Assembly: GCF_017311415.1 (NCBI RefSeq)
Contig: NZ_JAEKIS010000013.1
Coordinates: 62,001-126,000, forward strand
Source: Salipiger abyssi
GTDB taxonomy: Bacteria > Pseudomonadota > Alphaproteobacteria > Rhodobacterales > Rhodobacteraceae
DNA length: 64,000 nt
Reading direction: 5' to 3'
This document shows positions 4,249 through 56,655 of this stretch, one piece after another. Below the pieces are notes generated by a model, which worked only from the letters and a program-made list of their open reading frames with translations, searched no databases and had not been told where the DNA came from. Each line of letters opens with the position of its first letter. Within the stretch, counting starts at the first letter, position 1. The position numbers were made by a program, and so were the translations under genes.

Positions 4249-5622
4249 TTACATCAGTTTGCGGCGGCGTGTCACGCGAATATCCAGATCGGTGATCTTC
4301 TTGCGCAAAGTATTGCGATTGATTCCCAGCAGATCGGCGCATTTCGCCTGATTGCCGCCGGTGGCCTCCAGCGCGATCTCGATCAGCGGCGCCTCGACCT
4401 CCTTGAGGATGCGGGCATAGAGCCCCGGCGGCGGCAGCATATTGCCGTGCAGATCGAAATAGCGGCGCAGGTGGCGGGCCACCGAGGTGCCGAGCTTCTC
4501 CGCATCGCCACCGCGCAGGATCGGGCCGGTATCGGGCTGATTGCCCAGCACCGCCTCGACCTCGGACCGGCTGATCTCCTCGGCGCGCGAGGTCAGGCTG
4601 AGCCGGCGCACGGAATTTTCCAGCTGCCGCACATTGCCCGGCCAGCTATAGGCGCGGAAAAGCTCGGCGGCGTCCTTGGAGAGCCAGCGCTTGGGCGCGC
4701 CCTCGCGCTCGGAGCGGGCGAGGAAATGCTCGGTCAGCAGGGCGATATCCTCGACCCGTTCGCGCAGGCTGGGCACGTTGATCGTGGCGCCGGAGAGCCG
4801 GTAATAAAGATCCTGCCGGACATGGCCCTCCTCCATCGCCTGGGCCAGATCGCCCTGCGAGGTGGCCATGAAGCGCGGCACATGCTCGCCCGGGATATCC
4901 ATCATGCGTACCACGCGCGCCTGGATCTCGTCGGGGATGTCGGTGATCTCGTCGATCAGAAGCGTGCCGCCCTTGACCCGTGCCAGCACCCGCGCCGGGC
5001 CTTCGAGATCGGACAGGTCGGCGCCGGTCACGGTGATGAAGGGCAGCGTGCGGCGGTCGGAGAAATCATGCACCGCGCGGGCGATCAGCGATTTGCCCGT
5101 GCCGCTCTCACCCGAAATCAGCACCGGCAGATCGGTGTTCATCACCCGCGCCACGAGGCGGTAAAGCGCCTGCATCGCCGGGGTCTTGCCCACCAGCGGC
5201 AGCTCGTCCGGCCCGTCGGCACCGATCGTCGCCACCTCGTCGCGCTTCGGCGCGCGGTTGCGGTTGTCGAGCGCCTTGGCGGTGCGCTTCATCAGGTCCG
5301 GCAGATCGAAGGGCTTGGGCAGGTAGTCGTAGGCCTCGGCCTCGGCCGCCTGGATCGCCGTCATGATGGTGTTCTGCGCCGAGATCACGATCACCGGCAG
5401 GTCGGGCCGGTCCTGGTGGATCTTGGGCAGCATCTCCAGCCCGTTGCCGTCGGGCATGACCACGTCGGAAATCACCACGTCGCCCTTGCCCTCGCCGACC
5501 CAGCGCATCAGCGTGGTCAGCGAACTGGTGGCATGCACCTTGCAGCCCGCGCGGGTCAGCGCCTGGGTCAGAACCGTCCGGATCGTGCGGTCGTCGTCTG
5601 CGACTAGAACCGTGCCGTCCAT
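4249..5622 (-). CDS. ntrC: Nitrogen regulator NtrC (GAFTGA-less)
   Basis: 457 aa. Receiver domain with D53 as phospho-acceptor and K103; AAA+ domain with Walker A GESGTGKS (171-178) and Walker B LLIDE (221-225); Fis-type HTH at the C-terminus ([21 protein letters not shown]). Where other NtrC proteins have ELFGHEKGAFTGA, this one goes directly from [10 protein letters not shown] to [13 protein letters not shown], so the sigma-54 contact loop is deleted. This is the state known for Rhodobacter capsulatus NtrC, which activates sigma-70-type RNA polymerase. Its start codon overlaps the ntrB stop by one base (TAATG), so expression is coupled to the NtrB kinase. Confidence 0.96.
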
Positions 5623-52767: not shown

Positions 52768-54009
52768 TCAGGCGGTGGCCAGCGCCAGACCGTCGATCAC
52801 CGCCGTGAACGCCTCCGACCGGCGCAGCCGCGCGCCTGGGCAGACCGCGCGCGCCGCGTCGGCCACCAGCCGCATCAGGCTCGACCCGCCGACCAGCACC
52901 ACGGCACCGATCTGCATCGGCGTGACCTGCGCACGGTGCAACGTCTCGTACATGGCGTGGCGCAACTGTTCGCCCGCCTCCGTCAGCGCGGCGGCGAGCG
53001 CCCCGGCTGTGAGCGGCGCCGCAAGCCCGCGCTCGATCACCCCCATCTCGATGGCGGCACCCGGCGTGCCGCTATTGGCGGCGATCTTGCCGCGCTCCAC
53101 GGCAAAGGCCAGCTCGTGGCCCAGCTCATCCTCCAGCACGCTGACAAGGCGGGAAAATTTCTCCGGCTCCACCGCATGGCGCTTCATGTCGCGGGCGGCG
53201 CGCAGGGTGTCGGCGGTGTAGAGAAACGGGATCATCGCCCAGGTCGCCAGATCCACGTAAAGCGCATTGGGCACCGGCAGCAGCCCCTCGCCCAGCGGCC
53301 GGCGCAACTGCGAGCCGAGCCCCAGCAACGGCATGGCGTGGCTCAGCGAGACCGAGCGGTCGAAATCGGTGCCGCCCAGCCTTATGCCATGCGAGGCGAG
53401 GATCTCGATCCCCTCCGGCGCGGCGCGGAACACCGAGAAATCCGAGGTGCCGCCGCCGATATCGACCACCAGCCCCAGCTCGCCGGGGCGGTCGGCCTCC
53501 TGAAAGGCGCGCGCTGCCGCCTCGGGTTCATAGAGGAACGCCACTTGCGCAAACCCCGCCGCCTCGTAGCAGCCGCGCAGATCCGCCAGCGCCGCCGCGT
53601 CGCGCGCGGTGTCGGAGCTGTGGAAATGCACCGGACGGCCCGAGAGCACCCGGTCGAACGCCCTGCCCGTCTGCGCCTCGGCGCGGGTCTTTACCTCGAC
53701 CAGAAAGGCGGTGACGATCTCGGCCAGCGTGCGGCGGCGCCTGGCGATCAGGCGTTTCTCGTGAAAGAGCGGCGTGCCCAGCACGCTTTTCAGCGCCCGC
53801 ATATAGCGCCCGTCCTCACCTGCGATCAACGCCTCGGCAGCCGCCGAGCCGATGCGCATGGCGCCGCCCTCCTCGGGAAAGAACACGGCGGTGGGCAGGG
53901 TCTCGGCCCCGGGCTCCAGCGCGATGCGCCGCAATGCGCCCTGCTCCAGCATCGCGGCGGCGGAATTCGAGGTTCCGAAATCGACGGCAAGCGTGGCGGG
54001 CACGGGCAT
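52768..54009 (-). CDS. Hsp70-like actin-fold ATPase (YegD type)
   Basis: 413 aa. N-terminal phosphate-binding loop AVDFGTSNSAAAML (8-21), second loop LGLVVDIGGGTSDFSVF and adenosine motif VVLVGGSSLMRLVADAARAVCPG. The substrate-binding beta-sandwich and lid of DnaK are absent, as in YegD. Possibly a chaperone-like protein of unknown client. Its start faces the repeat-peptide operon; a GC-rich hairpin (54073-54103) lies between. Confidence 0.9.
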   Translation of the reverse strand: MPVPATLAVDFGTSNSAAAMLEQGALRRIALEPGAETLPTAVFFPEEGGAMRIGSAAAEALIAGEDGRYMRALKSVLGTPLFHEKRLIARRRRTLAEIVTAFLVEVKTRAEAQTGRAFDRVLSGRPVHFHSSDTARDAAALADLRGCYEAAGFAQVAFLYEPEAAARAFQEADRPGELGLVVDIGGGTSDFSVFRAAPEGIEILASHGIRLGGTDFDRSVSLSHAMPLLGLGSQLRRPLGEGLLPVPNALYVDLATWAMIPFLYTADTLRAARDMKRHAVEPEKFSRLVSVLEDELGHELAFAVERGKIAANSGTPGAAIEMGVIERGLAAPLTAGALAAALTEAGEQLRHAMYETLHRAQVTPMQIGAVVLVGGSSLMRLVADAARAVCPGARLRRSEAFTAVIDGLALATA

Positions 54010-54119: not shown

Positions 54120-55001
54120 TCAGGCGCGGAGCGCGCGGCGGGCAGGCAGCGCCTCGTCGGCGACCAGCCAGAGCCCGGAGCCCACGACCAGCGCCACGCC
54201 CAGCATCGTGCCCATGCCCGGCAGCTCGCCAAAGCCCCACCAGCCGATGGCGACCATCCAGACGAATTGCAGATTCATCAGCGGCGTCGCCACATAGGCC
54301 GGCAGCAGCCGCAGCGCCTCGACCGAGAGCCAGCGCGCGGCAAAGAGAAAGAGCGCATAGCCCGTGACCCAGCCCAGATCCGCCAGCCCCATCGGCTGCC
54401 AGACAAAGGGCAGCGCCACGCCCATGGTGAGCATCAGCGCGAGGTTGGGCCAGAAAACCTGCGCCAAGGGCACCCGTTCGATCCGCGCGATATAGCGCGC
54501 CGCCACCATCGAGCCGGTGCCGGTCAGCGCCGCGAAAAGCGCCCAGAGATGGCCCGGATCGACCGCCAGCCGCCCCGCCGGCATCAGGCAGAGCACCCCC
54601 GCCGCGCCAAGGCTCAGCGCCAGCCACACCGCCGGGCGCACCGGCTCGCCCAGGACCGGGCCGGAAAGCGCCGCCGCGATCAGCGGCATCAGCGCGATGA
54701 ACAGGAAGACATCGGCAAAGGGCAGCAGCCGGAAGGCCTGAAAGAAGCCGATGGCCGCCAGCACCGTGAGCATGGCGCGCAGCGCCATGACACCCCGGCA
54801 GCGCGTGCGCAGCCCGCCATGCCCGCCGCGCCGCGCAGCGGCCAGCGACAGCAGAATGACCAGCCCCGAAGAGAGCGCAAAGAGCTGCGGCGCGGCATAG
54901 CCGCCTGCGATCAGCTTGGTGATGCCGTCCGCCGCCGCGATGGCGCCGGTATAGAGCGCCACCAGCCCGGCGCCCGCCAGCGCACTGCGCGCGGCGCTCA
55001 T
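54120..55001 (-). CDS. EamA/DMT-family exporter of the repeat-peptide operon
   Basis: 293 aa, about ten membrane spans in two EamA repeats (about 12-140, 148-285). RAMLTVLAAIGFFQAFRLLPFADVFLFIALMPLIAAALSGPVLGEPVRPAVWLALSLGAAGVLCL is the first-half hallmark. The ATG overlaps the stop of the preceding unknown gene as ATGA. The family exports small metabolites and amino acids; export of a peptide product is only a guess from context. A second EamA gene at 44887 shares the fold but is not next to any repeat gene. Confidence 0.88.
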   Translation of the reverse strand: MSAARSALAGAGLVALYTGAIAAADGITKLIAGGYAAPQLFALSSGLVILLSLAAARRGGHGGLRTRCRGVMALRAMLTVLAAIGFFQAFRLLPFADVFLFIALMPLIAAALSGPVLGEPVRPAVWLALSLGAAGVLCLMPAGRLAVDPGHLWALFAALTGTGSMVAARYIARIERVPLAQVFWPNLALMLTMGVALPFVWQPMGLADLGWVTGYALFLFAARWLSVEALRLLPAYVATPLMNLQFVWMVAIGWWGFGELPGMGTMLGVALVVGSGLWLVADEALPARRALRA

Positions 55002-56059
55002 GCCTGCCCCGCGCGGGCGAAGCCCTCGAAGAAGGCGTCGAAATGCGCCGATTGCCCGGCCAGCGTATCGACCACATCAAGCGTCTGCGGCGACAGCCGC
55101 GCCTGCATCCGCGCCCGCATTACCGGCCAGTCCGGACGGCGCGCATCGCCCTCGGCAAAGAGCGCCTCCGACAGCTCGCGCAGCGGTGCCGCGACACGTT
55201 CGGAGCGGGTGAAGCGCATGCGCTCCGCCACCAGCGGCTTGCGGAAGGGCTCGGCCCCCGTCACCGCCGCATGCCAGTTGCACACGAGGAAATCGTGATA
55301 ATCGTCGGCGACCGAGAGCCCCTCGCCCTGCTCGACGGAAAACAGATGCGTCTCGCGTGCCAGCCAGCCCGTCCAGAGCGCCGGTGGCTCGGCGCCGGCA
55401 TAGCGCAGCGCGATGCAGATTTCGGCCAGAAGATCGGAATTCTGCTCAAGAAATGCCAGATTGCCGGCAAAATGCAGGCTGGTGAGCGCCTCCGCCCCCA
55501 GCTCGGGGTCGCGCCGCCCGTATTCGCTGAGGTAAAAGACGATATGGGTCAGCTCATAGGCGGCTTTCTTGTTCGGCAAGGCAAAGGTCTGCGTCCGGGC
55601 GCAAAACGCGCGCAGCCGGTCGGCCAGTCCTGCGTCCTCCGGACCGTCCACATCGCGCCGCGCCAGAAGCCGGCGCGCCTCCATACGTTGCAGGTCCGAA
55701 AGCTCGGCGCCGGCGAAATCCTCACGCGCCGCGCGGTCGGCCAGCATCGCGCCGGTGTCGCCCTCCATCCCCAGATCCTCGAGATCCAGCGTGATGGACA
55801 GCAGAAAACGGTAATATTGCGGGAAAAAGGCCAGTCGTTTCTCGACCGTCTCGTAAAAGCCTGCCAGCGCCTCCAGCGCCGCGCGCGGCAACATGGTGCC
55901 GGTGCATTCGAGAATGTTCAGAAGCTCGGCGTTTTCCTTCAGCCAGAACACATCCTCCTGACGCCGTCGGCAGGTGGCAAAGCTGGTCAGCAGCGCGGCG
56001 GCGCCGGTTTCCGGCGTGGCGACGCGGGCTTTGGGCCGGAGCGCGATCACATTGGTCAT
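54998..56059 (-). CDS. Soluble protein of unknown function, partner of the repeat gene
   Basis: 353 aa, no signal peptide or membrane span; mainly helical, with MTNVIALRPKARVATPETGAAALLTSF at the N-terminus and several conserved-looking aromatic and acidic stretches (RRRQEDVFWLKENAELLNILECTG, FPQYYRFLLSITLDLEDLG, KKAAYELTHIVFYLSEYGRRD). No kinase, radical-SAM, YcaO or LanM motif is seen. Start at 56059 after AAGGAAGAGGCCCGAC. It follows the repeat gene (71-bp gap with a hairpin) and overlaps the EamA gene by 4 bp, so the three are one unit. It may modify, bind or mature the repeat protein, but that is not shown by sequence. Confidence 0.85.
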   Translation of the reverse strand: MTNVIALRPKARVATPETGAAALLTSFATCRRRQEDVFWLKENAELLNILECTGTMLPRAALEALAGFYETVEKRLAFFPQYYRFLLSITLDLEDLGMEGDTGAMLADRAAREDFAGAELSDLQRMEARRLLARRDVDGPEDAGLADRLRAFCARTQTFALPNKKAAYELTHIVFYLSEYGRRDPELGAEALTSLHFAGNLAFLEQNSDLLAEICIALRYAGAEPPALWTGWLARETHLFSVEQGEGLSVADDYHDFLVCNWHAAVTGAEPFRKPLVAERMRFTRSERVAAPLRELSEALFAEGDARRPDWPVMRARMQARLSPQTLDVVDTLAGQSAHFDAFFEGFARAGQA

Positions 56060-56130: not shown

Positions 56131-56655
56131 TCAGGCGCCCGAGGTGAACAGGCCGGTGGCCTCGCCCGCTGCGGCGCGGGTGCCTTTGGGCGCGGCGCCC
56201 GAGGTGAACATTTCCACGGCATCGCCACGGATCGCGTCGCTGGCAGTCGGTGCGGCGCCGGAGGTGAACATCTCGACCGCATCGCCCTGCGAGGCCTCGG
56301 AGGTCACCGGCGCGGCACCGGAGGTGAAGAGCTCCACCGCGTCGCCGCTGGCGGTTTCCGACTGCGCCGGTGCGGCGCCGGAGGTGAAGAGCGCGACGGC
56401 CTCGCCGGTCATGGTGGCGCTGCCCATCGGCGCGGCACCCGAGGTGAAGAGACCGGTGGCCTCGCCGGTCGCGGCGGAACCGGTCACCGGAGCGGCACCG
56501 GAGGTGAACATCTCCAGCGCATCGCCGGTCATCGTTTCGCTGCCCATGGGCGCGGCACCCGAGGTGAACATCGAGCAGCCGTCGCCGCCGAACAGATCCG
56601 CACCGAGCGCGTCAACGGATTCTTCAGTGATTGCATGCTTGAGTTGAGCGGACAT
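56131..56655 (-). CDS. Repeat protein with eight FTSGAAP units (putative precursor peptide)
   Basis: 174 aa from ATG at 56655 (AGGGG eight bases upstream). Residues 1-29 are a leader-like part (MSAQLKHAITEESVDALGADLFGGDGCSM) with a Gly-Gly at 23-24 and the only Cys at 27. From residue 30 the heptad FTSGAAP recurs at 30, 50, 70, 90, 110, 130 and 150; at 170 the sequence is cut to FTSGA by the stop. Each unit is 20 aa, with a variable linker ending in G-D/E-A-x-x-M/L. No secretion signal or membrane span. Downstream are an unknown soluble protein and an EamA exporter. The open frame runs to 56790 but that part is likely leader. Function unknown; a precursor or structural repeat protein are both possible. 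Confidence 0.85.
   Translation of the reverse strand: MSAQLKHAITEESVDALGADLFGGDGCSMFTSGAAPMGSETMTGDALEMFTSGAAPVTGSAATGEATGLFTSGAAPMGSATMTGEAVALFTSGAAPAQSETASGDAVELFTSGAAPVTSEASQGDAVEMFTSGAAPTASDAIRGDAVEMFTSGAAPKGTRAAAGEATGLFTSGA
56141..56570. repeat. 60-bp tandem repeat array coding FTSGAAP units
   Basis: The core GAGGTGAA (reverse of TTCACCTC) starts at 56141, 56201, 56261, 56321, 56381, 56441, 56501 and 56561, an exact 60-bp period. DNA around the heptad is near-identical while the linkers differ, so the codons of the heptad are kept under selection or by recombination. Confidence 0.95.

Follow-up and report, generated by a model that had tools for sequence, protein, structure and literature searches.

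The repeat gene in the window, the whole 64,000-nucleotide stretch of Salipiger abyssi DNA analyzed here, probably belongs to a small RiPP-type operon in which a multi-core precursor would be modified, probably epimerized, at its cores by the adjoining DUF6902 protein and then cleaved and exported. Each precursor of this family from marine bacteria repeats one species-specific pentapeptide almost without change, and a relative of an epimerase family is encoded beside it. It is therefore likely that the repeats serve as cores for a ribosomally made peptide product that has yet to be described.

The repeat gene (56131..56655, minus strand), recognized as an open reading frame with homologs, encodes 174 amino acids. 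Alignment marks residues 1–23 (56587..56655, minus strand; MSAQLKH...) as a leader-like N-terminal stretch without repeats, in which Met1 is invariant and Lys6 is kept in at least 90% of 48 aligned precursors. The N-terminus, MSAQLKHAITEESVDALGADLF, has by eye no long hydrophobic stretch. Eight copies of FTSGA follow, all on the minus strand: core 1 at 56554..56568, core 2 at 56494..56508, core 3 at 56434..56448, core 4 at 56374..56388, core 5 at 56314..56328, core 6 at 56254..56268, core 7 at 56194..56208 and core 8 at 56134..56148, the last with the stop codon directly after it. They start at residues 30, 50, 70, 90, 110, 130, 150 and 170, so that all seven spacings are 20 residues or 60 bp, just as the original prediction had described for this 174-residue protein, together with its single Cys (residue 27). 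The same prediction took the heptad FTSGAAP to be invariant. Seven copies do read FTSGAAP, but the eighth is FTSGA followed by the stop, and the invariant unit, found in all eight, is thus FTSGA rather than the heptad. In 2000 shuffled versions of the protein, the count of any 5-mer did not exceed four. The invariant Ser and Gly of FTSGA are each split 4:4 between synonymous codons while linker residues vary freely; such a codon split means that the identity of FTSGA is more than recent DNA copying. Pfam and NCBIfam gave no family above threshold for this protein, and neither it nor the DUF6902 protein was matched in the plasmid collection at E ≤ 1e-3. Literature searches for DUF6902, PF21836, PF21843 and the FTSGAAP motif returned no paper, and the system was absent from reports on RiPP precursors, Rhodobacteraceae/Roseobacter or multicore, as judged by titles and the beginnings of abstracts.

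Among 198 genomes from the family to which the window belongs, the source genome included, 53 contain a match to the window protein. In the GTDB genome collection, 48 loci were picked up, of which 47 lie beside DUF6902 and come from Rhodobacteraceae-type genomes. The 48th (L079, Pseudonocardia) lacks repeats as well as all eight window neighbors and was rejected as a chance match; three weak matches in genomes without DUF6902 (G040, G116 and G140; E about 5e-4 to 1e-3) were also taken as chance. Salipiger pentaromativorans is the closest named relative. With duplicates dropped, and with L123 left out as lying at a contig end in the wrong frame, the set came to 91 distinct precursors, the window's included; per-position counts were made on precursors with at least three units only, and the repeat-protein alignment and structure prediction took in 48 of 84 precursor references.

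The homologs share a scaffold, G(-6)-[DE]-x-x-x-x-F(0), behind a short N-terminus that mostly reads M-x-A-x-x-K. The Gly-Gly with Leu at -4 to which the original prediction drew attention is present in the window but is not a feature of the family. GG occupies positions -7 and -6 of the first unit in only 13 of the 91 precursors, against DG in 41, which rules out a conserved double-glycine leader cleavage site. The cores themselves are diverse, with 25 different majority tetrapeptides (positions +1 to +4) among 88 precursors. They include FTSGS, FSSGS, FTSGL, FTSSM, FTSSL, FASGS, FPSGS and FSSAS; the Trp-containing FTSWS (also at the DUF6902 locus L193), FVSWS, FISWS, FPSWS and FTNWC; and FTSCA, FTCGL, FTCGA, FCSAS, FITSC, FSTSC, FTTSC and FTTSM. 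Not every core has Phe at position 0, as YIAGL, MMCCS and STSSF show. STSSF is the core of two precursors upstream of DUF6902 (L194 and L195), which have six or seven STSS each and in which the core is offset by one residue relative to the usual scaffold. In Shimia and its kin (L055, L057, L059, L060, L062 and L064), doubled cores FTSGL-VQM-FTSGL with a spacing of 8 residues alternate with long spacers.

The core changes even within the genus. Among nine other loci of the window's genus, six carry FTSGA and one was readable in part only; L150 has TSCA in 12 of 12 copies, with Tyr or Val for Phe in four, and L154 has FTSAA in 14 of 14. On a tree of 90 DUF6902 proteins, counted with 16 rare-core rows left out and a bootstrap that had not settled, at least 26 changes separate the 11 commoner core types, against a mean of 47.7 after shuffling.

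Within one protein the copies hardly differ. Over 681 units of 88 precursors, the four core positions from +1 to +4 have identities of 0.99, 1.00, 0.99 and 0.99 within a protein, compared with 0.54, 0.85, 0.45 and 0.37 between proteins; at linker positions +7 to +13 the identities are 0.29–0.38 within and 0.13–0.21 between proteins. In these first identity and codon counts the units had been picked by their likeness to the majority core, a choice that inflates the values, and a second round used units defined by the scaffold alone (G at -6, F at 0). By this definition, 636 of 654 units carry their own protein's majority tetrapeptide. Copy pairs that differ at five or more of seven linker residues still share the tetrapeptide in 958 of 1048 cases. 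In the likeness-picked count, between-protein pairs with equally different linkers have it in common in 9%.

The codons agree with this pattern. Among likeness-picked units, synonymous differences at core positions +1 to +4 separate 44–53% of copy pairs and residue differences 0–1.5%; among scaffold-only units, chance matches included, the values are 41–50% and 4–6%. Linker copy pairs show 10–17% synonymous and 63–70% residue change. Synonymous differences in the cores, next to linkers that have diverged, indicate that selection on the peptide keeps the copies alike, and the contrast in codon pattern between core and linker excludes recent DNA homogenization as the cause of core identity. By the scaffold-only count, 13 precursors hold more than one tetrapeptide. 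A real second core type is present in five of them (L051, L110, L126, L128 and L130), L028 and L056 have single-residue core variants, and the remaining six owe their count to a stray match away from the repeated cores, of which L128 has one as well. The unit that matters is the pentapeptide and not the heptad, and it changes between species while staying near-uniform within a protein. The proposal that the repeated motif rather than the linker is under selection thus holds, with the pentapeptide in place of the heptad.

The stop codon directly follows core residue +4 in 71 of the 91 precursors. The 20 others carry a tail: 13 are Trp-core precursors, most of which add a short stretch like GPVRA, and in two the tail closes with a different core, FSSGS. 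A precursor holds from 2 to 20 copies. The spacing is 20 residues in 315, 21 in 231 and 8 in 24 of 596 cases, and 63 of the 91 precursors have more than one spacing. A strict 60-bp period is thereby excluded as a requirement, and the strict 20-residue period fails as a general rule outside the window.

An inspection of the neighboring genes pointed to a near-obligate partner. The gene for the DUF6902 protein (353 aa; 54998..56059, minus strand), the proposed modifying enzyme with matches to PF21843 and PF21836, starts 71 bp past the precursor stop. It overlaps by 4 bp the gene for an EamA (DMT-type) transporter (54120..55001, minus strand; PF00892, E 8.2e-12), the proposed exporter. When 47 loci were compared against eight window genes, DUF6902 was directly downstream of the precursor in all 47 with xth on the opposite side, erpA-dgt usually followed, and the EamA gene was found in 37, one of the ten others being truncated by the locus end. 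The homologs thus keep this neighbor and not the heptad, whose core part varies by species. An Hsp70-like (YegD-type) gene lies between the EamA gene and erpA in the window (52768–54009, minus strand); it was matched in L032 alone of the 47 loci and is therefore probably not part of the system.

The two genes also occur together across genomes. DUF6902 is present in 55 of the 198 family genomes and a repeat match in 53, with both in 50; a repeat match thus accompanies 50 of the 55 DUF6902 genomes as opposed to 3 of the 143 others (Fisher 3e-37). Three of the five DUF6902 genomes without a match have a small two-copy ORF immediately upstream, with the cores YIAGL (L114), MMCCS (L115) and YTTSC/FTTSC (L116). 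The remaining two are a DUF6902 gene at a contig end (G139) and L113, which lacks a precursor. Four DUF6902 loci had no precursor found by the script: L116 was positive by eye, L113 had none and two were base-masked. Orthologs of the window's EamA protein (E ≤ 1e-40) occur in 41 of the 55 DUF6902 genomes and in 0 of the 143 others (Fisher 9e-31), and are absent at this cut-off from 14 of the 55. In a draw of 299 genomes of the phylum, DUF6902 was found in four: the genome that the window comes from and three others from the same family. No protease or dedicated leader peptidase was recognized among the five window proteins scanned; some RiPPs rely on a housekeeping protease.

The window's DUF6902 protein matches PF21843 (E 1.4e-161) and also, over residues 29–232, PF21836 or DUF6895 (E 8.1e-22; 78.4 bits against a cut-off of 23.8). 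An hhalign comparison of 81 DUF6902 proteins with ten actinobacterial DUF6895 proteins gave a probability of 92 and E 6e-7 over 132 columns. H172, D209, E213 and H255 align with DUF6895 residues in this comparison, K41 and E45 match by eye, and each of the six is kept in 80 of the 81 aligned DUF6902 proteins (out of 95, being 94 distinct and L113). By its sequence, DUF6902 is a diverged relative of DUF6895, a family whose members are called lasso-peptide epimerases in a title cited by one review (Shi et al., ACS Catal 2026). Epimerization is thus our best guess for DUF6902, by homology to a family that is itself an epimerase by that title. By analogy, the two conserved His and the conserved acidic residues would suit two-base chemistry.

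The sole exception at all six positions is the DUF6902 protein of L113 (2931–4028, plus strand), in which all six shared polar residues are replaced, although D252 is retained. It is also the sole readable DUF6902 protein with no recognizable precursor. L113 may serve as a natural control, though one of a single sequence that has itself diverged overall (24% identical to the window's DUF6902); it is perhaps a repurposed or decaying copy. DUF6902 proteins are mostly 46–84% identical to that of the window. The AlphaFold model of the window's DUF6902 is almost all-helical (pLDDT 94.7); Foldseek found no PDB match to it at E ≤ 0.001, and a sequence search found no solved relative at E ≤ 1. Its weak, non-significant Foldseek matches include helical-repeat proteins, among them NprR (E 1.2) and PrgX (E 0.86).

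These observations suggest a possible pathway. The 174-residue protein would be a cytoplasmic precursor with a leader of about 23 residues, followed by eight units GDAVEM-FTSGA-AP-linker. DUF6902 may recognize the leader, the G(-6)...F(0) scaffold or both, and would then modify each core, most likely by Cα inversion, with His172, His255, Asp209, Glu213 and Asp252 as candidate acid/base residues. A protease would cut the units, leaving core residue +4 as the last residue of the product, and the short peptide would be exported by the EamA protein. EamA transporters belong to the DMT superfamily and suit a small exported product better than a protein of 174 residues. As every copy would give the same product and a related species would make another, the product is most likely recognized by its sequence, as a signal or identity peptide. 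Two marks of a RiPP are present: an encoded precursor with a conserved N-terminal stretch followed by cores (91 precursors), and a candidate tailoring enzyme, DUF6902, linked to it. The proposal as a whole describes a multi-core RiPP, likely a new class if the chemistry is shown. The original interpretation is thus partly supported, and the next gene, which it had named for a test, is a near-obligate neighbor that is kin to a peptide-modifying enzyme family.

The main rival, unlikely in our view but serious, is that the repeat protein folds as a β-solenoid or amyloid-like structural or binding protein with stacked cores, DUF6902 being its chaperone or maturase. It is serious because identical residues stacked on successive rungs could favor copy identity. 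The AlphaFold model of the repeat protein is in fact solenoid-like, with about two strands per 20-residue repeat and a pLDDT of 71–77 in most repeat-region blocks; the prevalence of 20- and 21-residue spacings would suit such a fold, and the amyloids FapC and CsgA are among the non-significant Foldseek matches (E 1.8 and 6.4). The confidence of the model is, however, moderate (mean pLDDT 70.8, pTM 0.57), with no PDB match at E ≤ 0.001. A solenoid also agrees poorly with members of two copies, with 8-residue and mixed spacings, with a stop placed precisely at core +4 in most precursors, and with the linkage to an exporter, since EamA-type transporters are to our knowledge not known to carry large proteins.

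An unmodified signal peptide made from a multi-copy precursor, with DUF6902 as binding protein, protease or receptor, would predict the same core pattern, and the mostly helical model of DUF6902 with the quorum sensors NprR and PrgX among its weak matches would be in keeping with it. We regard it as improbable, as DUF6902 is homologous to a family that is an epimerase family by title, and the sole protein to have lost its conserved polar set is the one that lacks a precursor. A further alternative, in which the array stays intact in the cell as a scaffold or decoy that binds DUF6902 or another partner by avidity and is never released, could explain core identity through a shared binding pocket and would need no protease, none having been recognized among the operon genes scanned. 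It appears highly improbable, given that the motif differs between related species while DUF6902 stays mostly 46–84% identical to the window's, and given the exporter linkage. That neutral recombination homogenizes a tandem repeat with a functionless core is scarcely credible, for although near-identical linkers in some homologs reveal that arrays do expand, frequent synonymous but rare residue differences are confined to the cores, and the tetrapeptide survives between copies with strongly different linkers.

The multi-core RiPP reading has partial parallels among known systems. In multi-core bacterial RiPPs such as the cyanobactins, one precursor combines a leader with several cores; here no cyanobactin-type protease was among the window neighbors scanned, and the number of five-residue cores in one precursor of this family can reach 20. 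DUF6902 and the DUF6895 family have in common the motifs YxLTHxVFxLxxxG, D...E and YH. They are separate Pfam families, however, with 23% identity between DUF6902 and actinobacterial DUF6895 across the 132 aligned columns, and the neighbor of DUF6902 is a repeat protein, unlike the lasso-peptide system that the title for DUF6895 names. No lasso cyclase or leader-peptidase gene was found among the window neighbors scanned (DUF6902, EamA, Hsp70-like and exonuclease III); across the 47 loci the comparison was limited to the eight window genes and would miss others. MslH, the epimerase of the lasso peptide MS-271, is reported to invert a Cα in a ribosomal precursor with two His/Asp pairs and to have a calcineurin-like fold (PMC10406935). 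The DUF6902 model, almost all helical and with no PDB match at E ≤ 0.001, is not calcineurin-like. Fungal Kex2-processed repeat proteins and α-type pheromone precursors are reported to carry repeated identical or near-identical motifs that are released by cleavage (PMC6339444). As with pheromone precursors, identical copies that change between species suggest recognition by sequence. The fungal precursors are eukaryotic, secreted and cut by KEX2, whereas dibasic pairs are absent from the window protein, and its locus encodes a candidate modifying enzyme next to it.

If the proposed pathway is right, a new peptide product would have its gene at the same chromosomal site in all loci read and would occur in roughly a quarter of the family genomes sampled (55 of 198 have DUF6902), in a group known mainly for acyl-homoserine-lactone signaling. 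DUF6902 would gain a function, an enzyme superfamily for which no solved relative was found would be extended, and dozens of natural core sequences with matching enzymes would be on offer. Identity within a protein and change between species also raise a testable question, namely what makes all copies change together. A bolder version, which we put forward only tentatively and consider doubtful, is a "pherotype" system: a penta- or tetrapeptide with a d-amino acid would act as a species or lineage code that is rewritten in all copies upon the splitting of lineages, exported by a dedicated EamA transporter and sensed by kin, as a new RiPP class with DUF6895 and DUF6902 as a superfamily of peptide epimerases of a helical fold to which no solved structure was matched.

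Peptide-like genes accompany this enzyme superfamily in distant lineages, as short peptide ORFs lie upstream at other DUF6895 loci too. Nine DUF6895 loci outside DUF6902 have such ORFs (L163, L164, L178–L182, L191 and L192); like the window locus, they place a small peptide ORF upstream of the DUF6895 protein, and the peptides (e.g. GPWFVLK and SPPTPRPKKG) are unrelated in sequence to the FxSxx cores. Pfam gave nothing above cut-off for five of these peptides, and sub-cut-off DUF6895 matches (G531, G547, G644, G826, G274 and G285) were left out. In five genomes of the phylum of Pseudonocardia (5 of 346 above cut-off; L178–L182), two tandem DUF6895 genes are preceded by a small peptide ORF that was called at 61 to 105 aa and has SPPTPRPK close to its C-terminus. 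One ORF separates the peptide from DUF6895, of 232–236 aa in three loci and of 183 and 319 aa as called in the other two. Judged from these ORFs, the five loci look like another undescribed peptide system.

In proteobacteria, the upstream ORF of L164 holds two units, DWTFVSPNYVYKGS and DWTFISHNYVYKGS, and that of L163, 78 aa long, contains AWAFIVKGKFVFK. At L191 (5604–6203, plus strand) there is a pair of paralogous ORFs, 66 and 65 aa long, with GRWYVYVG and GPWFVLAG close to their C-termini, and at L192 (7437–7868, minus strand) a 143-aa ORF with AGPWYIYK and VGPWFVLK units, so that two-unit repeats are found in the upstream peptides of both L164 and L192. At L191 and L192, peptides with a GPW[FY][VI]-type motif adjoin DUF6895, and L191 includes, in addition, a gene for a papain/C39-like protease (4271–4906). 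A weaker tenth case is L196, where a 97-aa ORF containing GWWAVVSDHCVVAGG lies upstream of a short, diverged DUF6895-like frame without a repeat.
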